A stretch of DNA of 64,000 nt, taken from assembly GCA_002840715.1 (NCBI GenBank), contig PHBW01000016.1, positions 1 through 64,000 of the forward strand, in the 5' to 3' direction. Shown piece after piece: positions 26,829-38,809 of the stretch (the stretch's first letter is position 1; each line of letters begins with the position of its first letter). The stretch is from Chloroflexi bacterium HGW-Chloroflexi-4 (lineage in GTDB: Bacteria > Chloroflexota > Anaerolineae > Anaerolineales > Anaerolineaceae). The notes under the pieces are model-generated. The model saw only the letters and a program-made list of their open reading frames with translations, was not told the DNA's origin and searched no databases. The translations under genes were made by a program, and so were the position numbers.

Positions 26829-26875
26829 AACCTAGATATAGGAGGGGGCGCGATATCTACCCCCATATATGGGGG
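26829..26875 (+). promoter_or_regulatory. Tandem NrdR-like boxes
   Basis: Box 1, AACCTAGATATAGGAG (26829-26844), and box 2, CCCCCATATATGGGGG (26860-26875), start exactly 31 bases apart. The NrdR consensus is close to ACACTATATATAGTGT, and NrdR sites normally come as pairs about three helical turns apart. The central ATATAT-type cores agree. The outer bases differ (CCCC/GGGG in box 2). Lying at the start point, they fit repression by ATP/dATP-bound NrdR. Confidence 0.75.
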
Positions 26876-26922
26876 ATGTTCTTTTCAAAAAGGATACTTA
26901 TCGAAGCAAGAGGAGATCGGTT

Positions 26923-29223
26923 ATGGATAAGGTTGGTAAGCAGATTATGAGTGACATTAACGAAAATACCTCACACAACGATGACCCCTTTGGTCAGGAA
27001 GTTATTGTTGTTCCCAGTACGGTTGTTAAACGGGATGGAAGTGTTGTCCCTTTTAATATTGAACGAATTGAAATTGCTTTGCGCAAGTGTTTTGAGAGTA
27101 TTGGCAAGAAACCTATTATTCCGATCGAAACCATAGCAAAACGTGCCGTAAATGTGGTGGCGAGCAAATTTGACCGCCCCTCGGTGGAAGCCATTCAAGA
27201 TATAGTTGAAATGACCCTGCAATCATTGGGTGAATTTTCGGCAGCTAAGCACTATATTTTATATCGCGCTGAACATGCCAAGCTGCGGCAATCACGGCCT
27301 GTGCCAAGTGATATTCGCCAGGCTTTTGACGAATCGGATGCATTCTTCCCTACACAGCTTCAAAAGTTTCAGTTCTATGATAAATATTCACGCTTTAACT
27401 ATGAACTCGGACACCGCGAAACCTGGGTTGAAACCGTGGATCGCGCCACGGATTACCTCAAAGAATTGTCAGAGAACAAGCTGCCCGAAGAAACTTATGC
27501 CCGTGTGCGCAAAGGTATTCTTGAGATGCGTGCCATGCCCTCCATGCGCTTGTTAGCCATGGCTGGACCGGCAGCCCGCCGCAACAATATTGCCATCTAT
27601 AACTGTTCTTACATGCCGGTTGACAGCATTGATTCCTTTGTTGAAGCTTTGATTATCTCGATGAGCGGCTGCGGAGTGGGTTATTCGGTTGAAAAACAAT
27701 ATGTTGAAAACTTCCCGCGTGTTCACCGCCAGATCCCTGGCGATGTGCCAACATTGATCATTGAAGATTCGGCTGAAGGCTGGGCTGACGCTTTGCGTAA
27801 AGGCCTGCAAACATGGTTTGACGGACATGATATAAAATTTGATTTCTCAGAGATCAGACCGGCCGGCGCTCCTCTTCGAATTAAAGGAGGTCGTGCTTCA
27901 GGACCTGAACCTCTGCGCAAAATGCTTGAGTTTGTGCGCAGCCGCGTATTGGCACAGCAAGGCGGCTTTATTCGTCCGATTGATGCTCATGACATCATGT
28001 GTGAAGTAGGCAACGCTGCGGTTTCTGGCGGTGTGCGTCGAACAGCCATGATCAGCCTTTTTGATTATGATGATGTTGAAATGCGCAAATGCAAGAGCGG
28101 CGATTTTGAGCGAGAGAACAATCAGCGCTGGAACGCCAACAATTCACTGGTTTGGCCGGATCGCAAACTGACCCAGCTTGAAATCTTCAATATCATCGCC
28201 GACATGCACATGTCAGGTCGCGGCGAACCCGGCATCTTCAACCGCCGCGCCGCGCATAACACCGTCCCTGAAAGACGCAAAAAAGTTGATTTTGGCACCA
28301 ACCCCTGCGGAGAGATTGTGCTGCGCCCTTACGAATTTTGTAATTTGAGCATTGCAGTCGCCCGCAGTGAAGACACTTACGAGTCTTTAAAAGAAAAAGT
28401 GGAATTAGCCACCATCATCGGCACCATCCAGGCTATGGCCACAAACTTCCCCGGCATGCGCGATGTTTGGAAGCAAAATTGCGAAGAGGAACGTTTGCTG
28501 GGTGTGGATATCAACGGTCAACTGGATTGTCCGGTAGCGCAAGACCCCGAAGTACAGGAAAAGCTGCGCAAAGTGGCTGTTGAAACGAATGAAAAATATG
28601 CTGACATGCTTGGCATCAACCGTTCTGCTGCCGTAACCACTGTCAAACCTTCCGGCAACAGCTCACAACTTTTGGATTGTTCCCCCGGCATACATCCCCG
28701 CTGGTCGCCTTTCTATGTCCGCAACGTACGCGTTGGCACACACTCGCCCATTTTCAAAGTCCTGCGCGATGCCGGTGTTCCCATGAGCCCTGAAAACGGC
28801 CAAACCATCGAAAACGCCACCACATGGGTGATTCACTTCCCTGTTAAGGCACCAGAAGGCGCAGTTACCCGAGAAGCACGCCCAGCCTTGATGCAGTGTG
28901 ATTATTGGCTGCAAAATAAAATGCACTGGACGGAGCATAATCCCAGTGTGACCATTACCTACAAACCGGATGAGATCATTGACATCATCAAGTGGGTTTG
29001 GGAGCATCAAGATGTGATCGGCGGTATGACCTTCCTGCCCTCTTACGATTCCCTCTTCAATCAAATGCCCTATGAACAGATTGAAGAAGCTGAATACAAC
29101 AAGCTGGCTGCGAAATTCCCGAACATTGATTTTTCGAAGCTTTATTATTATGAAGAAAAAGATCTAACCACTGCTGCCCAGGAATTAGCCTGTCTGGCTG
29201 GCACTTGTTCGATTGAGTTTTAG
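26923..29223 (+). CDS. nrdJ: Adenosylcobalamin-dependent (class II) ribonucleotide reductase
   Basis: A 766-residue enzyme reducing ribonucleotides to deoxyribonucleotides. It begins with an ATP-cone (about 30-115, VVKRDGSVVPF) for allosteric control. The three active-site cysteines expected from the Lactobacillus leichmannii enzyme are present: C228 (YNCSYM), the radical C462 in NPCGEI, and C473 (EFCNL). The C-terminal redox pair is C757-x4-C762 (CLAGTC). An in-frame ATG at 26869 lies inside the second NrdR-like box and has no ribosome site. ATG 26923 follows AGAGGAG by a good distance and is the better start. It heads the deoxynucleotide region, and a strong hairpin separates it from the next operon. 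Confidence 0.93.
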   Translation: MDKVGKQIMSDINENTSHNDDPFGQEVIVVPSTVVKRDGSVVPFNIERIEIALRKCFESIGKKPIIPIETIAKRAVNVVASKFDRPSVEAIQDIVEMTLQSLGEFSAAKHYILYRAEHAKLRQSRPVPSDIRQAFDESDAFFPTQLQKFQFYDKYSRFNYELGHRETWVETVDRATDYLKELSENKLPEETYARVRKGILEMRAMPSMRLLAMAGPAARRNNIAIYNCSYMPVDSIDSFVEALIISMSGCGVGYSVEKQYVENFPRVHRQIPGDVPTLIIEDSAEGWADALRKGLQTWFDGHDIKFDFSEIRPAGAPLRIKGGRASGPEPLRKMLEFVRSRVLAQQGGFIRPIDAHDIMCEVGNAAVSGGVRRTAMISLFDYDDVEMRKCKSGDFERENNQRWNANNSLVWPDRKLTQLEIFNIIADMHMSGRGEPGIFNRRAAHNTVPERRKKVDFGTNPCGEIVLRPYEFCNLSIAVARSEDTYESLKEKVELATIIGTIQAMATNFPGMRDVWKQNCEEERLLGVDINGQLDCPVAQDPEVQEKLRKVAVETNEKYADMLGINRSAAVTTVKPSGNSSQLLDCSPGIHPRWSPFYVRNVRVGTHSPIFKVLRDAGVPMSPENGQTIENATTWVIHFPVKAPEGAVTREARPALMQCDYWLQNKMHWTEHNPSVTITYKPDEIIDIIKWVWEHQDVIGGMTFLPSYDSLFNQMPYEQIEEAEYNKLAAKFPNIDFSKLYYYEEKDLTTAAQELACLAGTCSIEF

Positions 29224-29366: not shown

Positions 29367-30101
29367 GTGACCTCTTTGGCGGGAAAAGTGATTTTGGTAA
29401 CCGGTGGTGCGCATCGCGTGGGAAAATCCATCGCGCTGGCATTGGCGCGTGAAGGGGCATCCATTGCCATCACTTACCATTCCTCCCAAAAAGATGCGCT
29501 TCAAACCGTGGAAGAACTCAAAGCTCTTGAGGTTAATGCGGTCGCTTTTTACTGCGATCAAACCGAGATTGATCAGATTCAAAAAACGGTGGTCGATTGC
29601 CATACTTTTTTTGGCCGTTTGGACGGCTTGGTCAACAATGCAGCCATCATGCAGGAAATTCCGTTTCAAGAGATCACCCCCGAAACCTGGGCTCAATCCA
29701 TGGATACCAACGCCAGAGCGCCTTTTTTCTTTACTCAGGCAGCCAGCAAGTTGATGCAAGAAGGGGAGGGCGGCGCTATAGTCAACATACTTGATGAAAG
29801 TGCACAGGTACCCACCCGATATTACATTCATCACAGCGCTTCAAAAGCAGCTTTACGCATGCTCACTCTTTCTACCGCGCTGGAGCTTGCCCCGCGCATC
29901 CGCGTGAACGCTGTTCTGCCCGGACCGGTGTTGATGCCAGAAGGCGGCGATGAAGAAAGATGGAAACGTCTTGAAAAGAATACACCGCTCAAACGTCTGG
30001 GAACACCGGATGACGTTGCAAGGGCGGTTCTCTATTTAATGAAGGAAGAATTCATTACCGGGCAGGTTTTGGTGGTGGATGGCGGTAGGACGATCAAATA
30101 A
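29367..30101 (+). CDS. Pteridine-reductase-like short-chain dehydrogenase
   Basis: A 244-residue SDR with the NAD(P) motif VTGGAHRVGKS, the arginine pattern of pteridine reductases and FolM. In those enzymes the active site is Asp...Tyr-x3-Lys. Here Asp143 (NILDESA) and Lys160 are in place with the PTR1 spacing of 13 and 4 residues, but the Tyr position is His156 (HHSASK). FolM/PTR1 enzymes reduce dihydropterins and dihydrofolate. Thymidylate synthase yields dihydrofolate, and no folA-type reductase is nearby, so this protein may recycle the folate. That is inference. GTG 29367 with AGGAG is the start, rather than an upstream TTG inside the hairpin. Confidence 0.75.
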   Translation: MTSLAGKVILVTGGAHRVGKSIALALAREGASIAITYHSSQKDALQTVEELKALEVNAVAFYCDQTEIDQIQKTVVDCHTFFGRLDGLVNNAAIMQEIPFQEITPETWAQSMDTNARAPFFFTQAASKLMQEGEGGAIVNILDESAQVPTRYYIHHSASKAALRMLTLSTALELAPRIRVNAVLPGPVLMPEGGDEERWKRLEKNTPLKRLGTPDDVARAVLYLMKEEFITGQVLVVDGGRTIK

Positions 30102-30120: not shown

Positions 30121-30657
30121 ATGGGTTCAGTTTTATCAGCAGCAAAGATTCGAGAACTCCAAAAAAATAATCCGCCCTTGATAGAAGGGCTATTGGATGC
30201 AGATCAACAGATCCAGCCCAACGGTGTGGATCTGAGTCTTTATTCTATTCAGGCTTTTCAATCTGGCGGTCAGCTTGGGTTTTCAAGCGCTGAACGAATT
30301 TTGCCTCAACTCACCGCCATTGATTTTATGGAGGGTTGGGTAACTCTGCCTCAAGGTCAATATCTTGTGACATTTAATGAGATCGTCCATCTGCCGGTGG
30401 AAGTGATGGCGCTGGGACGTCCGCGCTCAAGTTTACTGCGCATGGCCGTTTCTGTTGGAACGGCGGTCTGGGACGCGGGTTACAACGGACGCAGTCAGAG
30501 CTTGTTGATCGTATACAATCCGGGCGGGGTTAAATTGGCGCAAAATGCCAGGCTGCTGCAGTTGGTTTTCTTTGAAATTGAAGGTGGCACCCACGCTTAT
30601 GATGGATTCTTTCAAAACGAAAACTTGATTCTACCCAATCAAAAGGATGCAGTATGA
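30121..30657 (+). CDS. Archaeal-type dUTPase (dCTP deaminase/dUTPase family)
   Basis: A 178-residue trimeric-fold dUTP pyrophosphatase candidate that would make dUMP. It has QPNGVDLSL (about 37-45) and the core GRPRSSLLRM...GTAVWDAGYNGRSQSLLIVYNP, a pattern usual in archaeal dUTPases. The start ATG 30121 has GGAG upstream. The frame also extends upstream into the SDR gene, which is not needed. Its end overlaps the next start codon (ATGA at 30654-30657), so the operon is translationally coupled. A dCTP deaminase activity cannot be fully excluded by eye. Confidence 0.82.
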   Translation: MGSVLSAAKIRELQKNNPPLIEGLLDADQQIQPNGVDLSLYSIQAFQSGGQLGFSSAERILPQLTAIDFMEGWVTLPQGQYLVTFNEIVHLPVEVMALGRPRSSLLRMAVSVGTAVWDAGYNGRSQSLLIVYNPGGVKLAQNARLLQLVFFEIEGGTHAYDGFFQNENLILPNQKDAV

Positions 30658-31082
30658 AAATTACGGCTTATGTATCTGGGGCGCTCACCGGCGGAGATGA
30701 AATCGAACTGCTCAAACATTTTTATGAGCGAATTGCCGAAACGTGCAAAGTCGCAGGTATAGAGGCTTATGTACCCCATCTTGTTTCTGACCCGATTGGC
30801 AACCCAAACATGACCCCCGAAGAAGTCTACGATCTAGATCGCCGCCAGGTGCTGGATTCGAACCTGTTGGTGGCTTATGTGGGCTATCCCTCATTGGGGG
30901 TTGGTCAGGAAATTGAAATTGCCCGCGAGAATAACATTCCGGTCGTAATGTTGATGGAAAAAGACCGTAGAATTTCGCGCATGGCGCGCGGCAACCCCGC
31001 TGTGGTGGCTGAAATCCATTTCACCGACCATGATGACGCCCTGCAGCAACTTTCACACTGGCTAAAGGAGTGGAAGGCATGA
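30654..31082 (+). CDS. Nucleoside 2-deoxyribosyltransferase-fold protein
   Basis: A 142-residue protein of the nucleoside 2-deoxyribosyltransferase/DNPH1 superfamily. It begins KITAYVSGALTGG and has the DLDRRQVLDSNLLVAYVGYPSLGVGQEIEIA segment, where the Glu after GVGQ is the expected nucleophile. Relatives either exchange bases between deoxynucleosides or hydrolyse deoxynucleoside 5'-monophosphates. DNPH1 removes 5-hydroxymethyl-dUMP. In this operon, next to a dCMP-hydroxymethylase-like TS, a clean-up or salvage role on modified deoxynucleotides is an attractive but unproved idea. Both ends overlap neighbours by four bases. Confidence 0.68.
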   Translation: MKITAYVSGALTGGDEIELLKHFYERIAETCKVAGIEAYVPHLVSDPIGNPNMTPEEVYDLDRRQVLDSNLLVAYVGYPSLGVGQEIEIARENNIPVVMLMEKDRRISRMARGNPAVVAEIHFTDHDDALQQLSHWLKEWKA

Positions 31083-31909
31083 CCCAGTTTGACCGTACCT
31101 ACAGCGATTGCCTGAAACAGATCCTTGATCACGGCATTGAAGAAGTGAATGAGCGGACAGGGCATAAAGTGAAAGCGCTGCCCGGGCTGCATTTTAATCT
31201 GGACGCGGGCTTTCCACTTTTATCGCTTCGCAAGATCGCACCGAGGGTGTTCGCAGCGGAACAGGTATGGTTTATGATGGGCAGCCGTAAACCGGTTGAA
31301 TTTATTGATCAATACACAAAAATCTGGAATGATTTCACCAATCTCAACGGCGTGGTCAACTCAGCATACGGCTTTCGCTGGCGGCAGTTTTTTGGCCGGG
31401 ATCAAATCGGATTGTTGGTGAAACTGCTTGAAAAAGAACGCAGTTCACGCCATGGCGTTGTGATCACCTGGGATCCGGCTGCCGACGGCTTGAACCCTGA
31501 ACTCAAAAAGAAAAATGTTCCCTGTCCGCTTTCGTTCACAGTCAATATTATTGGTGAAAGACTTCACTTTCACACCATTTTCCGTTCAAACGATATGGTG
31601 GTAGGCTGCCCCTTTGATGTGGCTGGGTTTGCCCTGCTTCAGCGCATGCTGGCGGCGAGGCTGGGCGTGGGGGTGGGGGTTTACTCCCATTCGATATCCA
31701 ATGCCCATATTTATGATGTGCATTATGAGGCGGCGAGAGAGATCATCAGCCGCAGCGGACAGGAAAACGAAATTGAGCTCAACGCAGAACCAAATTGGTT
31801 TGAACGCGCTGAAAAAGGCGACGTCACCCTGGTGGATGAGATTGTGAAAATTCTGGATGCCCAATATACCCCGGCCCCTCCCATTAAGGGCCTGCCGGTG
31901 GTTTTGTAA
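31079..31909 (+). CDS. Thymidylate-synthase-family methyl/hydroxymethyltransferase with Asp switch
   Basis: A 276-residue TS-fold enzyme. The nucleophile is Cys149 (NVPCPLSF), and RSNDMVVGCPFDVAGFALL and SNAHIYDVHYE align with the dUMP-binding and late HxY regions. Where dUMP-specific TS has Asn (E. coli N177, PFNIA) it has Asp180 (PFDVA). The same Asp occurs in T4 dCMP hydroxymethylase (C148, D179), where it selects cytosine. The residue after the Cys is Pro instead of His. So it may act on dCMP, making 5-methyl- or 5-hydroxymethyl-dCMP, or be an unusual dTMP synthase. ATG 31079 overlaps the previous stop and has AAGGAG. Confidence 0.8.
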   Translation: MTQFDRTYSDCLKQILDHGIEEVNERTGHKVKALPGLHFNLDAGFPLLSLRKIAPRVFAAEQVWFMMGSRKPVEFIDQYTKIWNDFTNLNGVVNSAYGFRWRQFFGRDQIGLLVKLLEKERSSRHGVVITWDPAADGLNPELKKKNVPCPLSFTVNIIGERLHFHTIFRSNDMVVGCPFDVAGFALLQRMLAARLGVGVGVYSHSISNAHIYDVHYEAAREIISRSGQENEIELNAEPNWFERAEKGDVTLVDEIVKILDAQYTPAPPIKGLPVVL

Positions 31910-31936
31910 GTTATTTCGAATATCGAAGGCAAATTG

Positions 31937-32965
31937 ATGGCAGAAACTTCAATGGCTATTAAAGGCGCCACGCTTAAAGATCTGTTGGCTGAAGCTCACG
32001 ATTACGTGATCAGCCACGGCGTAAAGCGTGAATCTCAACGCGGCACCACTTTTTCTGTCAAAGCTCTGACGCTGCTGTGGGAGACCCCTACTAATTCGGA
32101 TGAAAATTATTGGGGATGGCCTCGCGCATCTGCGGATTTTTATCAGCAGATTTTTGTGGATGGCAGAACTGAAAACCGGCCAGAGCGGCTGGCTGAAAAA
32201 GGGGATTATCTTTTCCCATATACTTATGCGGCGCGCTCGCGTTTTTGGGACGGCGGCTGGGGATACATCCAGGCGGTGCTGCGCGCCACGCAAAAAGTGG
32301 GCGGCACTGTGGCCTCAATCACCAATACCCAGGCTGCCTTTCTTGAATATCTGGCTTCTGCCGGCGAATTGGTTCATTTGCAGGTGATTCTGGAAGTATG
32401 GGATTGGCTGGGCAGTCAGCAAATGGCTGCTTTTTTGGAGAATCCTTTTCAGGTGGATTCCTTTTTAACCAGATCGCGAGTCGATCAATTGAAACGCATC
32501 ATCCATGAAATCAATGAAAACCCGGCTTCGCGCCGCGCGGTGACGGTTTCATTTGTTTACCCCGAACTGGATCAGCGCATGAAACCCCTGCTGGGCATTC
32601 CGCCCTACCAGTTTTTTCAGTTGCTGCCGGGTGAGGCAAACGAACCCCTGCACTCATTCCACGTGCACCGCTCGCTGGATGCCGGGCAAGGAGTGTTATT
32701 GGATTTCATGCATGATTACACTTGGCTTTCTGAAGCATCGGCCAGTGTGAAACGTCCAATAGGCACGATTACAGTCACCGCGGGAGATTTTCATGTTTAT
32801 CTGCCGTCAGAAAAAGCCCCTGCCGTGGACCGGATTGACCAATGGCTGATGGATGTGACCGATGGCTACCAGGCAGGCATGGGCACGCCTTCCAAATGGC
32901 TGAAAAACGAGAAGTACCTGCAAAATGCAGAAAGAATTTATTCCTTATTGGGAGATGCTCAATGA
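31937..32965 (+). CDS. Divergent cysteine-free thymidylate-synthase-like protein
   Basis: A 342-residue protein that is clearly TS-like. NPASRRAVTVSF matches the phosphate-binding SRR motif, IPPYQFFQLLP the region of PPCHxxxQF, RSLDAGQGVLLDFMHDY the RSxDxxxGxPFN block, and TAGDFHVYLP the HGDxHxY strand. The nucleophilic Cys is Tyr224, and the protein contains no cysteine anywhere. The Asn position is again Asp. It cannot use ordinary TS chemistry, so it may be a regulatory or scaffold partner of the active TS next door, forming a heterodimer, or use another mechanism. ATG 31937 with GAAGG, 27 bases after the first TS gene. Confidence 0.78.
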   Translation: MAETSMAIKGATLKDLLAEAHDYVISHGVKRESQRGTTFSVKALTLLWETPTNSDENYWGWPRASADFYQQIFVDGRTENRPERLAEKGDYLFPYTYAARSRFWDGGWGYIQAVLRATQKVGGTVASITNTQAAFLEYLASAGELVHLQVILEVWDWLGSQQMAAFLENPFQVDSFLTRSRVDQLKRIIHEINENPASRRAVTVSFVYPELDQRMKPLLGIPPYQFFQLLPGEANEPLHSFHVHRSLDAGQGVLLDFMHDYTWLSEASASVKRPIGTITVTAGDFHVYLPSEKAPAVDRIDQWLMDVTDGYQAGMGTPSKWLKNEKYLQNAERIYSLLGDAQ

Positions 32966-33594
32966 TCTTAACCAGCCAGCAAATTATGGATCGAATCGAG
33001 AAAAAAGAACTCATTTTTTCACCGCAAATTGATCAATTTCAAATTCAGCAGCATTCAGTGGATTTACGGCTAGGCTTCTCTTTTTTGCTACCCAAAGCTT
33101 GGGACTTGACCAATGAAGGTCGTGTGGCGGTGCGTACAGACCATCTGGATGTTGATCATAAAACCATGCGTCACACGCTGGTGGAGTTGGAAGAAGGCCA
33201 GGTATTTGATATTTTGCCTGGTGAATATGTGGCGGTGACCACACTCGAAAAAATAAAACTACCTGACAATCTGATGGCCATTTTATATCCACGTTCGTCG
33301 GTCAACCGCAGAGGTCTCTCAATCGACCTGACCGGCGTAGTGGATGCCGGTTACGAGGGCAATCTGCTGATTCCGGTGCGTAACAATACTCAGTCACAGG
33401 TCATTCGCATGTATCCTGGAGAGCGCATCTGCCAGGTGGTGTTTGAAGAGATCAACGGATCTGTGCAAGTGAAACAGAGCCGCTGGCAGAACTCAGATGT
33501 GATAGTCACTATCAAAGAAGAACGCAGTACAAATGAGATGGATTTTGTGCGCAAGGGTAATATCACAGGCTTGAAAAAAGAATTTCCTATGTAA
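32962..33594 (+). CDS. dcd: dCTP deaminase (possibly bifunctional dCTP deaminase-dUTPase)
   Basis: A 210-residue member of the dCTP deaminase family. MILTSQQIMDRIEKKEL at the start, QQHSVDLRLG, the core YPRSSVNRRGLSIDLTGVVDAGYEGNLLIPVRN and MYPGERICQVVFEEI are all typical. It turns dCTP into dUTP, or directly dUMP if bifunctional. The ATG at 32962 overlaps the previous stop (ATGA) and has GGGAG. The frame also opens upstream at 32842 within the TS-like gene, which lacks a ribosome site. It is the last gene of the coupled operon and ends five bases from the convergent glnE. Confidence 0.87.
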   Translation: MILTSQQIMDRIEKKELIFSPQIDQFQIQQHSVDLRLGFSFLLPKAWDLTNEGRVAVRTDHLDVDHKTMRHTLVELEEGQVFDILPGEYVAVTTLEKIKLPDNLMAILYPRSSVNRRGLSIDLTGVVDAGYEGNLLIPVRNNTQSQVIRMYPGERICQVVFEEINGSVQVKQSRWQNSDVIVTIKEERSTNEMDFVRKGNITGLKKEFPM

Positions 33595-33599
33595 AAAAC

Positions 33600-36500
33600 T
33601 CAAGCTTGCAGCAGCTTCTGGTTGATCTCAAGCACTTCCTGCGGATAGCGGGTTAAGTCTTGTTTGAGACGTTGCACATCCGATCCGTATTGCAGACGGC
33701 GGGCGAGATAAGCGAATTCGTCGCTCTCATAGGGTGGAATGTTGACATCCTTGGCGTTGCCTCTCACAACCCGCAGAGAATCAATCAGCCAGCGCATGAA
33801 GGTGTGTGCCTTACGCAGACGGTCATAATCTTCAATGGTGAGATACCCGGCCTGATGCATGGCTGCCATAGCTTCGCGGATGTTGGTAAGTCTGAGTGAT
33901 GAATCTTTAAATCCGTAATTGATCTGCAACCCCTGAACAAGATATTCAATATCCACCAGGGCGCCGGGGCTGAACTTGGCGTTGAAAGTTCCGGCAGCGG
34001 TCAGGTGGCGTACCTGTTTTTCACGCATGGCACGCATGGATGTGACGTCAAAGACCGTGCCGTTATAGACGTATTCATCACGTAAACTGCTTAATTGACT
34101 GCCCAAATTTTCGCTCCCGGCAATCGGACGCAGCTTGACCAACGCCTGCCGTTCATAAGGCCAGGCAGGCCCGTCAGGGGCATAGTATTTCTTGAAGGAT
34201 TCAAGTGAGACGGCCTGGCTACCGGCTTTGCCATAAGGGCGAAGCTGTAAATCAATATGAAAGACGCCTTCCTGCCTGGCCTGAATCGACAGGATCAGGG
34301 ATTGGATCAGTTCCTCATAAAAATTACTGGTGGCGATGCTTTTGAATCCGGTTGTTTTGCCCTGGCCGGTATAAACGAGCATGAGTTCGATATCAGAGGC
34401 GAAACCGAGTTCGCGTCCGCCGCACTTGCCCAGGGCCAACAAAACAGCTTCAGCGGGCTGGCTTTTTTCAAGCTTGGGCTGGCCGTGTTGTTTCACCAAC
34501 TCCTGTTTGCAACGCTCAAAAGCCTCGCTTAAAACAACTTCCACAAGATCGGTGAGTTCTTCTGAGAAGGTGCCGAATTCGGCGGTGTATCCGAGGATAT
34601 GGCGCATGTCGATGCGGAACATCTCGCGGTCTTTGAAGGCGTTCAACCCTTCACGCCAGTTGGCAGCTTTGGCGATTGCCTTTCGGGCTTCTTTTTCAAG
34701 GTCCTTTCGGGTAAAGGCTTTTTCAAGCGTATCCACGTTACTCACGATCGGAAAGAGGTTGGAATACTGCATGCGCAAAAAGTCATCCCACAAGAAGTCG
34801 CTGACACCCAGCAATTTGGCCAGGGCGTTGAGCACTTCGGGGCGTTCAATGCGCGCAAATTCATCCACCCAGTTGGGACGTTCAAAAAGTTGAAGCAAAA
34901 ATTCTCTGAAATGCAGCATGGCGCTTTCAGGGTTGGGAGAGTGGGGCAGTAAATGGGTGAAATGTTTAATCAATACTGCGGCAGCCCGCAGTTCTCGCTG
35001 CTTTTCGGGTGTGACGATTTTCTCACCCTTTTCATTGGTGACATATAAGATGTCGCTGGCCTGGCTGCCCACGGATTGCACCAGCATGCGCACGATGTTA
35101 ATGTGGCTGAGTGCCAGGGCATTGCTGAATTCATACAGGAAACCAGCCGTGTCAGGCGCACTGATGCGCAGCAGTGTATATTTATCATCCGCTTCGTTGT
35201 CAATTTCAATTTCAACAGGGTAAAGGGGCATGCCTTCGGCTGGTGTTTCGTGGAAGGTGGCGCCAACCCGTTTGACCAAATCGCCCTGGGCTTCACGCCG
35301 CCTGCCGGTCTTGATTTTGGTGATTAAAGCCTTTAAATCGTCAGCATAGTTTTTCAAGAGGTCGGGATGTATGGATTCATCTTTCACTGATCGCACGGTA
35401 AAAACATCCACGATCTTCTTCAGCCCCTGATCTCCGCTGCTGGTAGTATTGGCTTCATAGGTAAAGACCTGGCTTTCAAGAATATCCAGACCGTAGAGGT
35501 ACATCAAACCGCAGATGATCGAGAGCACACCCAGATAGTCGTATCCGACAATGGTGATGCGCCAGCGATTGTCATCTACAAGCTGGGGTTCGACGATCAC
35601 AGGTTTATCACTGGAAAGCATTTCGGTCAGGCGGGTGTGGTGAGCAATCTCATCAGGGCTAAAAGTGGTGGCGTAAGACGCATCCATGCGGGAAACGTGC
35701 TGCTGAACCTTGATTGCGATTTCAGGGGACACGACCACGGGTTCAACCGCCTGGTTGCCGACATATTTCAAGAAGATGGTGCGCAGCGCCTGTGATTGTT
35801 TCTCATAAGCCTGGATGAAGCGTTCACCGGCACCATGACCTTCAAATCCGAGTCGGCGAGCTAATAATGCCAGTGAGTGTACATCAGAGGGCAGGGTATA
35901 TGTTTGCTGATAGTCTGTAATTTGCAGATAATGTTCAATGGTGCGCAAAAAGATATAACCGTCGGTGAGGATGCGCGCTTCTTCAGGTGTGATCAGCTTG
36001 GCATCTCTCAATTGAGGGATGGCTTTAAGGGTTGACCGGGTGCGAATGGATGAATGGGTCAACTGTAATGATTGAACCACAAACTCAACGTCGCGGATGG
36101 AACCTGCACCAAGTTTAACCTCGCCCCATTTACGACCTTTTTCGAGCAGAAATTCTTCTGTGCGCTGTTTCATTGAGAAAATGCCGGCGCGCACTTCATC
36201 CGCAGGGATGCTGAAGAGCAAGGGCTCCACATCTCGGCGCAGTTCTTCGCCAAATGCCAGGTTGCCGGCAATGGGGCGTGCTTTAAGAAAAGCTTGTTTT
36301 TCCCACAGCAGCGCGGATTGTTTGTAGTAACGCAAATAGCCTTCAAGGGTTGTGACCAACGGACCGTCATGCCCCCAGGGACGCAGGCGCATATCCACGC
36401 GGTAAAGGAACCCATCTCCCGTGGATTTTGAGATGATGTCTATCAACGATTTTGCGAGTTTAAGATAATTTTCAGATGCCTGTTTGGCAATGAAAAGCAG

Positions 36501-37184
36501 ATCAATATCCGAACTGTAATTGAGTTCGCGGGCGCCGAGTTTGCCCATGGCCAGCACGGTAAAGTTGGAGGCAGAGACTCCGGTTTCTTCGGCAGCCAAC
36601 GCCAGGCAGGCGCGGGTCATGCCAATAGCCATACGCGAAAGCTGAGAAAAAACAGCCCGCAAGTCGAACAGGTCTAAAAAGTCGCTGACCCCTATGCGCA
36701 AAAGTTCCCTGCGCTGGTAACGCCGAAGTGCGTCCAGCCGCTCCAGATAATCATTTCTGGATTGCCATGCAGCCATGCCTTCACTGTGGAATTGATCCAC
36801 GGTTTTGCGCTCGGTCAGCAGGCTGCGCTGCGCCACCAGACGGATGGCATCAGGCGTTCCCAGTAATATCTCGGTTAAAAAAGGACTGGCGGAAAAAAGG
36901 GTCACCAAAATTTCCACCAGGCGCGGATTTTCTTGCAGGTCAGCGAACAAGGAACCGCTGAATGTATCCACCAGACGTTCAAAATGCACCAGCGAACGAT
37001 CAGGGTCTGCGGCGACCGAGAGCGCAGGAATCAGCCAGGGCAGCAGTTCCTTCATCTGGTCGGGGTAGGTTGTGGTCAGGCGGTTGAATATGGATTTGGC
37101 GTTTTGGCTGTCAGCAAAACTATTTCCATCAAAAAGCTGAGAAATGGCGGTATTGGCGTCGGCGCTGTTCTTTTCGGTTTTCAT
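33600..37184 (-). CDS. glnE: Glutamine synthetase adenylyltransferase with inserted GlnD-like ACT module
   Basis: A 1194-residue GlnE, well above the E. coli 946. The N-terminal transferase has GKLGARELNYSSDIDLLF (about 214-231) and GSIRDVEF (361). The C-terminal one has GKCGGRELGFASDIELML (919-936) and ALVDIEYLVQ (1075). Between them (about 505-745) is a segment with the GlnD tail pattern SPDEIAHHTRL...P.IV and two ACT domains (about 540-600 and 669-720). No HD domain is present. It would adenylylate and deadenylylate glutamine synthetase, perhaps sensing glutamine directly through the ACT pair. ATG 37184 with GGAAGAG is preferred; an ATG at 37199 lies at the likely transcription start. Confidence 0.88.
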   Translation of the reverse strand: MKTEKNSADANTAISQLFDGNSFADSQNAKSIFNRLTTTYPDQMKELLPWLIPALSVAADPDRSLVHFERLVDTFSGSLFADLQENPRLVEILVTLFSASPFLTEILLGTPDAIRLVAQRSLLTERKTVDQFHSEGMAAWQSRNDYLERLDALRRYQRRELLRIGVSDFLDLFDLRAVFSQLSRMAIGMTRACLALAAEETGVSASNFTVLAMGKLGARELNYSSDIDLLFIAKQASENYLKLAKSLIDIISKSTGDGFLYRVDMRLRPWGHDGPLVTTLEGYLRYYKQSALLWEKQAFLKARPIAGNLAFGEELRRDVEPLLFSIPADEVRAGIFSMKQRTEEFLLEKGRKWGEVKLGAGSIRDVEFVVQSLQLTHSSIRTRSTLKAIPQLRDAKLITPEEARILTDGYIFLRTIEHYLQITDYQQTYTLPSDVHSLALLARRLGFEGHGAGERFIQAYEKQSQALRTIFLKYVGNQAVEPVVVSPEIAIKVQQHVSRMDASYATTFSPDEIAHHTRLTEMLSSDKPVIVEPQLVDDNRWRITIVGYDYLGVLSIICGLMYLYGLDILESQVFTYEANTTSSGDQGLKKIVDVFTVRSVKDESIHPDLLKNYADDLKALITKIKTGRRREAQGDLVKRVGATFHETPAEGMPLYPVEIEIDNEADDKYTLLRISAPDTAGFLYEFSNALALSHINIVRMLVQSVGSQASDILYVTNEKGEKIVTPEKQRELRAAAVLIKHFTHLLPHSPNPESAMLHFREFLLQLFERPNWVDEFARIERPEVLNALAKLLGVSDFLWDDFLRMQYSNLFPIVSNVDTLEKAFTRKDLEKEARKAIAKAANWREGLNAFKDREMFRIDMRHILGYTAEFGTFSEELTDLVEVVLSEAFERCKQELVKQHGQPKLEKSQPAEAVLLALGKCGGRELGFASDIELMLVYTGQGKTTGFKSIATSNFYEELIQSLILSIQARQEGVFHIDLQLRPYGKAGSQAVSLESFKKYYAPDGPAWPYERQALVKLRPIAGSENLGSQLSSLRDEYVYNGTVFDVTSMRAMREKQVRHLTAAGTFNAKFSPGALVDIEYLVQGLQINYGFKDSSLRLTNIREAMAAMHQAGYLTIEDYDRLRKAHTFMRWLIDSLRVVRGNAKDVNIPPYESDEFAYLARRLQYGSDVQRLKQDLTRYPQEVLEINQKLLQA

Positions 37185-37205
37185 ATGAGACTCTTCCATA
37201 AAAAA

Positions 37206-37211
37206 ATTATA
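37206..37211 (-). promoter_or_regulatory. -10 element of glnE
   Basis: A perfect TATAAT on the minus strand, 6 bases before an in-frame ATG (37199) and 21 before the chosen start. No good -35 is seen. If used, the glnE mRNA has a leader of only about 15 bases or none. Confidence 0.45.
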
Positions 37212-37281
37212 CAGTAAGTGCAGGTTTGGAGAATAAGCCAATCCACGCTTTAATCTTATTCCATTTGAAGCGTGAAAAAAG

Positions 37282-37295
37282 TACCCGTTCGGGTA
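37282..37295. promoter_or_regulatory. Operator-like palindrome between glnE and glnA
   Basis: TACCCGTTCGGGTA, a 6-2-6 inverted repeat, touches the -35 element of glnA and lies upstream of glnE. Candidate site for a nitrogen regulator. The family is unknown. Confidence 0.45.
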
Positions 37296-37296
37296 A

Positions 37297-37325
37297 TATA
37301 CAGGGTAAGGGTGTTTCTCTATAAT
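37297..37325 (+). promoter_or_regulatory. Promoter of glnA
   Basis: TATACA (37297-37302), 17 bases, TATAAT (37320-37325). The palindrome at 37282-37295 abuts it on the upstream side. The leader is about 65 bases. Confidence 0.55.
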
Positions 37326-37396
37326 CACTAAATACTTTTTGAGGACTTATATCTTTTTATCTAAAAATTGACCTCGAATTCTAAAGGAGAAAACTC

Positions 37397-38809
37397 ATGG
37401 GAAAGACAGTGAAAGAAGTACTTGAATTAGCAAAGAACGTAAAAATGGTTGACCTGCGATTTATTGACCTGCCGGGAACCTGGCAGCACTTTACCATTCC
37501 TGCCCACCGATTGGACCTTGACCTTTTCGAGGAAGGCATTCCATTTGACGGTTCATCCATTCGCGGGTTCCAGGAAATTCACGAATCTGACATGCTGCTG
37601 CTGCTTGATCCTGAGACCGCATTTGTTGATCCAGTAGCACCGTTGCCTACTTTGGTGATTAGCTGCGATGTTTATGACCCGATCACCAAGCAACCTTACA
37701 GCCGTGATCCCCGTTTTGTTGCCAGAAAAGCCGAAGCCTATTTAAGGCAAACCGGCATTGGCGACACTGCTTTCTTTGGACCTGAAGCCGAGTTCTTTAT
37801 TTTTGACAATATTCGCTACGGCAGCAACACCAATGAATCTTTCTATGAAATCGACAGTGCTGAAGGCTGGTGGAACAGCGGTGATAAATCCAAACCCAAC
37901 ATGGGCGGTCAAATTTTGCCCAAACGCGGATATTTCCCCGTGCCTCCAACCGATACACTTCAGCTATTGCGCAGCCAGATCGTTATGGCGCTTGAAGAGT
38001 CTGGCGTCGAAATGGAGATACATCATCATGAAGTTGCTTCCGCTGGTCAAGTTGAGTTGGGTATGAAATTCAACACCTTGATCCGCATGGCTGATCAACT
38101 CTTGATCTACAAATATATTGCCAAGAACGTTGCCCGACAGAACGGCAAGACGGCCACCTTTATGCCCAAACCCCTCTTTGGCGATAACGGCTCTGGCATG
38201 CATGTGCACTCGTCAATTTGGAAGAACGGCAAAAATGTCTTCTTTGATGCCTCAGGTTATGCCCAGCTTTCTGATACTGCCAAGTATTACATCGGAGGTT
38301 TGCTGAAACATGCTCCTTCATTGTTGGCGTTGACCAACCCCACCACCAACTCATACCGCCGCCTCGTGCCCGGTTATGAAGCACCTGTCAACCTGGCTTA
38401 CTCACAGCGAAACCGTTCGGCTGTCTGTCGTATTCCAGTTACAAGCAGTGAGAAATCCAAGCGTGTTGAATTCCGCGCCCCGGATGCCACCAGCAACCCC
38501 TATTTGTGCTTCTCTGCTTTGTTGATGGCTGGTTTGGACGGCATCCAGAATCGGATCGACCCCGGCAATCCTGTTGATAAAGACCTATATGAACTGCCGC
38601 GTGAAGAAGCCAAGTTGATCAAACAGGTCCCAGGTTCTTTGGGTGATGTGTTGATTGCACTCGAAAACGACCATGATTATCTGCTCAAGGGTGACGTCTT
38701 CACCAAAGATTTACTTGAGGCGTATATTTCATACAAACGTCAGAATGAGCTTGATCCCGTGCGCATCCGCCCTGTGCCTTACGAATTTGTGTTGTACTAC
38801 GATATTTAG
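37397..38809 (+). CDS. glnA: Glutamine synthetase type I
   Basis: A 470-residue type I glutamine synthetase that makes glutamine from glutamate, ammonia and ATP. It has [18 protein letters not shown] (N-terminal beta-grasp to catalytic domain), [28 protein letters not shown], the [14 protein letters not shown] glutamate-binding region and VEFRAPD. Tyr398 in [11 protein letters not shown] corresponds to the adenylylated Tyr397 of E. coli (numbered without Met), so control by the divergent GlnE is expected. AAAGGAG precedes the ATG. A terminator follows the gene. Confidence 0.97.

Follow-up and report, generated by a model that had tools for sequence, protein, structure and literature searches.

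An Asp-type thymidylate synthase homologue and a nucleophile-less paralogue: a candidate two-gene route to dTMP in Chloroflexota

The locus and its gene neighbourhood

Two consecutive genes of the thymidylate synthase (TS) family, here called A and B, lie among genes of nucleotide metabolism in the window analysed (the whole 64,000-nucleotide stretch at the start of contig PHBW01000016.1 of Chloroflexi bacterium HGW-Chloroflexi-4; Table 1). The source genome is a draft of 3.86 Mb, 85.6% complete. The motif AAAGGAG upstream of the ATG of A supports the start and the residue numbering used in an earlier note on this DNA, which was made from the sequence alone. That note had placed both reading frames in the TS family, and rightly so: PF00303 is the sole Pfam match of each (160.4 bits for A and 40.1 bits for B, against a gathering cut-off of 24.3), and neither matches PF02511 (ThyX).

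Table 1. Genes of the cassette, in window coordinates
Feature	Position	Strand	Remarks
Adenosylcobalamin-dependent ribonucleotide reductase (ATP cone)	26869..29223	+	Best NCBIfam match, the triphosphate reductase model RTPR, is below cut-off
Pteridine-reductase-type SDR (FolM/PTR1-like)	29367..30101	+	PRK09135, 237.7 bits, below cut-off 288 (best NCBIfam match)
dUTPase, archaeal-type	30121..30657	+	NF002598, 182 bits, over cut-off 130; 9w59, E 6.6e-50
(d)NMP N-glycosidase-like protein (BlsM/MilB/DNPH1 type)	30654..31082	+	Overlaps start of A
A: TS-family catalytic subunit, TS-like C-terminus	31079..31909	+	ATG start; Cys149 nucleophile; Asp180 at Asn177 site
B: TS-fold paralogue without catalytic Cys or E58	31937..32965	+	ATG start; nucleotide-pocket residues and Asp kept
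dCTP-deaminase-family, dUTPase-like protein	32962..33594	+	Overlaps stop of B; every pair genome tested has an ortholog

The gene order of Table 1 recurs in four congeners at 82-97% identity, with the ribonucleotide reductase staying upstream of the cassette. The SDR probably serves in dihydrofolate (DHF) recycling. It has an ortholog in G009 and G013 (87%), two congeners that also carry A and B; congeners with ThyX have generic SDRs only (33-38%), and orthologs of the pteridine reductase and of the N-glycosidase-like gene are present in the congeners with the pair and were not found in those with ThyX. Ten genomes of the genus, some with ThyX and some without, were tested for DHFR of the PF00186 type, and none had it. 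In the distant genome G309 a PF00186 DHFR sits between A and B, and the order there is A, DHFR-like gene, B, dCTP-deaminase-family gene, thymidylate kinase. Neither hydroxymethylation nor ThyX would call for an enzyme that recycles DHF beside A, whereas reductive methylation would; the pteridine reductase or DHFR near A points to a DHF-producing reaction.

The small N-glycosidase-like gene is translationally coupled to A and is 96-97% identical in congeners. Its product matches PF05014 at E 1.4e-4 (below cut-off) and, among PDB entries, BlsM at 1.9e-4 and Rcl/MilB at 0.003-0.007; it may clear unwanted (d)NMPs. On the other side of the pair, the dCTP-deaminase-family protein exceeds the TIGR02274 family HMM yet lacks the deaminase Glu (E. 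coli E138, in the LEFYN/LELxN strand). Pro replaces this Glu in the orthologs of G000, G009, G309, G158 and G339, and the protein carries a dUTPase-like motif 3 (DAGYxGN). The gene is present also in G158 and G339, where A and B are unlinked. No dCMP deaminase was recognisable in the eight genomes that have both A and B (the pair genomes, which are metagenome-assembled drafts, 68-98% complete; all genomes compared are drafts): the PF00383 matches considered for this role were rejected as cytidine deaminase, TadA-like or RibD-type proteins. Beyond the cassette, the reverse strand at 33600-37328 encodes a protein of 1242 residues that by eye is an adenylyltransferase of the GlnE type carrying an ACT-like regulatory insertion; a glutamine synthetase gene (37397-38809) adjoins it.

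Sequence and structural features of A and B

Aligned by MAFFT to E. coli ThyA, whose numbering is used below, A keeps Cys146, E58, R21, W80, Y94, R126, R166, S167, D169, H207 and Y209, and is changed to Asp at 177, Pro at 147, Phe/Val at 165 and His/Gln at 127. The Cys146 column is Cys and the Asn177 column is Asp in every A member, which confirms the nucleophile Cys149 and the Asp180 (in PFDVA) that had been read from this protein. A thus has both marks of an Asp-type dCMP C5-transferase, the Asp at the Asn177 site and the catalytic Cys. Its score against TIGR03284, the model of dUMP-specific ThyA, is 110.4 bits (cut-off 108.35), and it falls far under the remaining ThyA equivalog models.

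The ThyA set of Cys with E58, R166, D169, H207 and Y209 is complete in A only: B is without the Cys, E58 and the C-terminal tail, and the TS profile leaves its N-terminal half unmatched. What B does keep is R126, R127, R166, S167, D169, Asp at 177, H207 and Y209, as expected from the earlier observation that its SRR, RSxD and GDFHVY blocks and an Asp at the Asn site survive. Tyr224 had been placed at the Cys position of B; HMMER agrees, whereas MAFFT puts Pro there with the Tyr adjacent, and neither alignment leaves a nucleophile. Likewise, this B has no cysteine among its 342 residues, but that is no family trait, since relatives of B carry Cys elsewhere: the lost nucleophile is what is conserved. 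In three distant genomes A is 55-62% and B 37-44% identical, with the features of both proteins kept, so chance is excluded. Asp stands at the 177 site throughout A and B, invariant over distant lineages, where dUMP-specific ThyA has Asn; a single base change would revert it. The two proteins are related to each other only through the superfamily (hhalign E 7e-5), and B forms a long separate branch.

The structural model of B (pLDDT 77, pTM 0.76; weak in the Cys loop, residues 204-225) has a TS fold. In VIA-align it comes closest to two phage dCMP hydroxylase entries, 9iqu (Z 16.1) and 9iqc (Z 15.8), followed by MilA and TS at Z about 13-14. No AfhB-type sequence match to B was detectable, which does not argue against a fold relation between the two. 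The model of A is poor (mean pLDDT 66) and was used for the fold alone, which is TS-like (Z about 19).

Distribution of the pair

Within the genus, five of the 16 genomes sampled carry A and B (G000, G006, G009, G012 and G013) and have no ThyX match; the remaining 11 have ThyX matches and no TS family. The same exclusion is seen more widely: among 121 relatives, PF00303 occurs in 25 and PF02511 in 90, with no overlap (hypergeometric 1.4e-20, phylogeny ignored). Across the phylum, full-length B and high-scoring A homologues are found in the same four of 400 genomes (G000, G309, G158 and G339). The last three share one class (Ktedonobacteria-like), most of whose 47 genomes are without B, and the pair is present in two classes in all. 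In G158 and G339, A and B lie on separate contigs with flanks that exclude adjacency: co-inheritance persists when the genes are unlinked. These observations support A and B as an obligate evolutionary pair; the earlier note had suggested an obligate heteromer. Neither ThyX nor canonical ThyA turned up elsewhere in the pair genomes: PF02511 had no match in the genome of the locus itself, no ThyX was found in G309, G158 or G339, and no further TS-family match exists in the pair genomes besides A and B.

Viral contigs, phages and plasmids gave no B beyond weak generic TS matches; the weak matches in phages proved to be ordinary or Asp-type TS and were rejected as B homologues. A weak match in G239, a 444-residue ORF beside a 1468-residue ATPase-like ORF, is no TS and was taken as chance.

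The ThyX of the congeners (L038:9600-11051, L039:2016-3452 and L040:8727-10205, all on the reverse strand) has about 480 residues and two Thy1 domains. Its first half is without the RHR motif, its second half reads RHRM(M/L)TxTPQ instead of RHRxxSxxxxS, and a RibF-like gene (FAD synthesis) lies upstream. It probably works despite the unusual motif, because the TS family is excluded with it across the 121 genomes. Two members of the same family, G031 and G062 (98-99% complete), have neither ThyX nor a TS-family match and are auxotrophic for thymidine or else rely on an unknown route. Another genome without a ThyX match, G092, has a fragmentary TS-family sequence that is interrupted by two stop codons (L026, C23:2627-2860).

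Ancestry of A

In a maximum-likelihood tree A is a single clade (support 97/93). Its nearest sister is the TS of an incomplete phage contig (100/98), and the two together are sister (99/96) to the Asp-type synthases of Pamexvirus/Bradleyvirinae-like and Rhodobacter phages, which groups A with the Xp12/Pamexvirus enzymes. On this phylogeny A descends from the Asp-type synthases that phages of the Xp12 group carry, in a cassette that runs MazG-like gene, TS, dCMP deaminase, DHFR. The DNA of Xp12 has 5-methylcytosine in place of cytosine, and phages of the group resist restriction (PMC9206674); an Xp12 dCMP methylase is cited in PMC5175136. The position of A in the tree backs the earlier reading of its Asp as of the dCMP type, and so does published work: Asn-to-Asp at this site (N177D/N229D) shifts TS towards dCMP (PMC8670742), Asp179 of the T4 enzyme is required for cytosine (PMC6400193), and Asp is the mark of cytosine-specific members of the TS family (PMC5175136).

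The A-type synthase of the phage contig, from IMG/VR (L116:4001-4837 / L120:8206-9042), is 56% identical and has His at the Arg127 site. It adjoins a true dUTPase and a MazG-like gene, and no B lies in the 18 kb of its sequence (the contig is incomplete). Asp also occupies the Asn177 site in two further TS-family proteins of Chloroflexota (L082 in G362 and L084 in G176); these belong to a separate clade, which groups with an annotated phage dUMP hydroxymethyltransferase.

A possible role in dTMP supply

To our knowledge, only two enzyme families make dTMP de novo, ThyA and ThyX. The absence of both from the pair genomes, together with the neighbours for DHF recycling and the dTMP pathway, strongly indicates a dTMP route: the pair very probably makes dTMP, and both proteins are likely to be required for it. 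The overall reading favoured here, held tentatively and at just short of an even chance, is a two-gene replacement for ThyX/ThyA in de novo dTMP supply, with A likelier to act on dCMP and B as a required partner or a deaminase. Whether A and B form a physical heteromer is an even call. In the proposed reaction, Cys149 of A would attack C6 of the base and methylene-tetrahydrofolate would give a methylene group that is reduced to methyl; the DHF left behind would be recycled by the neighbouring pteridine reductase (DHFR in G309). If A acts on dCMP the product would be 5-methyl-dCMP, deamination to dTMP would be needed, and B could be either a required subunit or the enzyme of this missing step.

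The choice of base is where the evidence divides. The residue that is Asn in dUMP enzymes is Asp in A and in all its phage relatives, which makes dCMP the likelier base; that dCMP is the actual substrate of A is evenly balanced. Two facts stand against it. None of the eight pair genomes has a recognisable dCMP deaminase, and the operon holds two dUTPase-like genes that suggest a supply of dUMP; one of these two genes accompanies the pair in all pair genomes tested. The same facts favour A and B as a dUMP-methylating TS with a Cys-less regulatory or scaffolding subunit, the Asp being accommodated and not dictating cytosine. The thymidylate kinase in the G309 operon fits as well, and pairs of a catalytic protein and a dead paralogue exist, for example trypanosome AdoMetDC and prozyme (PMC6221367). 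Nevertheless, engineered as well as natural enzymes with Asp at this site use dUMP less well and prefer dCMP (PMC8670742, PMC6400193), and the Asp has stayed invariant in A and B over distant lineages, easily reverted though it is; a dUMP-methylating pair is credible, with clearly less than an even chance. Of the earlier suggestion of a dTMP route through dCMP, the dTMP part is strongly indicated and the dCMP part has about an even chance. The proposal that B is the deaminase is coherent, because B is always with A in cells, is not seen with the phage relatives, and has most of a nucleotide pocket with the cytosine-type Asp. We know of no precedent for a deaminase in the TS fold, and this function for B is unlikely; a two-step route, with 5-methyl-dCMP made from dCMP by A and then deaminated to dTMP by the Cys-less B, is distinctly unlikely. 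A point against the overall reading itself is the relative of A in a phage contig without B, though that contig is incomplete. Because A has His/Gln in place of Arg127 and B has Arg-Arg, B might lend A its second phosphate-binding Arg in trans, but comparison with other synthases weakened this idea: Arg127 is Gly in the TS of T5 and of a Vibrio phage, Gln in those of SPO1 and an Achromobacter phage, and His in the B-less phage contig, and bacterial TS of the VAAP clade are active with Gly at this site (PMC6005164).

The earlier note had also suggested that the pair makes 5-substituted dCMP (methyl or hydroxymethyl), which would serve phage-like modified DNA. The Asp site, the ancestry that A has in common with the Xp12-group enzymes and the likeness of the N-glycosidase-like neighbour to MilB/BlsM would fit, but the pair is found exactly where ThyX and ThyA are absent and replaces the cell's only thymidylate synthase, its neighbours are DHFR or pteridine reductase and thymidylate kinase, and an unsystematic look at the neighbours noticed no glycosyltransferase or other modification enzyme. 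The suggestion is not supported and has very little chance of being right. The least probable reading is that thymidine salvage feeds the pair species while A and B carry out some other nucleotide reaction, B perhaps independently and as a fold relative of phage dCMP hydroxylases. The near-complete G031 and G062 indicate that loss of both synthases is tolerated in the family, and the B model lies closer to 9iqu and 9iqc than to MilA or TS; against this, the distribution of the pair is complementary to that of ThyX inside one genus, and the operon is built around dTTP synthesis.

Neither a heterodimeric or two-component thymidylate synthase nor a 5-methyl-dCMP route turned up in a literature search of partial coverage. 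Genomes without recognisable ThyA or ThyX that have an Asp-type TS and a nucleophile-less paralogue point to a chromosomal system with its origin in cytosine-modifying enzymes of phages. Such a system would show either that a partner subunit can override the textbook Asn/Asp specificity rule or that thymine can be built from dCMP via 5-methyl-dCMP. If the latter is true, with A as methylase and B as deaminase, thymine would have a third route, one that does not pass through dUMP, and the TS fold would have a new activity.

Comparison with known systems

The best structural match of the B model is the phage dCMP hydroxylase AfhB (PDB 9iqu; Z 16.1 over 200 residues at 18% identity), to which B has no detectable sequence match. 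ThyX has the same apparent role in the cell, dTMP supply, and is mutually exclusive with the pair in the genus; its fold and chemistry are unrelated and it produces no DHF. T4 gp42 (dCMP hydroxymethylase) and MilA/BcmA (CMP hydroxymethylases) have the same TS fold, Cys and Asp at the Asn177 site as A, and the pairing of MilA with MilB resembles that of A with its N-glycosidase-like neighbour. Those enzymes are hydroxymethylases without DHF production, whereas the context of A and B indicates a DHF-producing reaction and dTMP supply. With ThyA (TIGR03284, PF00303; E. coli), A has in common the fold, Cys146, E58, R21, Y94, R166, S167, D169, H207 and Y209, the C-terminal hydrophobic tail and DHF-recycling neighbours; it differs in Asp for Asn177, Pro for His147, Phe/Val for Gln165 and His/Gln for Arg127, and the obligate, Cys-less second gene is extra here. 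A is the sister clade (99/96) of the Asp-type TS of the Xp12/Pamexvirus phages (PaMx74, Mallos, Elanor, RcSimone-Hastad; the Xp12 dCMP methylase). Both have the NVPCP and Asp motifs and a DHFR neighbour. The phages are without B and their cassette has MazG and dCMP deaminase, whereas A is chromosomal and the sole TS-family catalyst of its cell.
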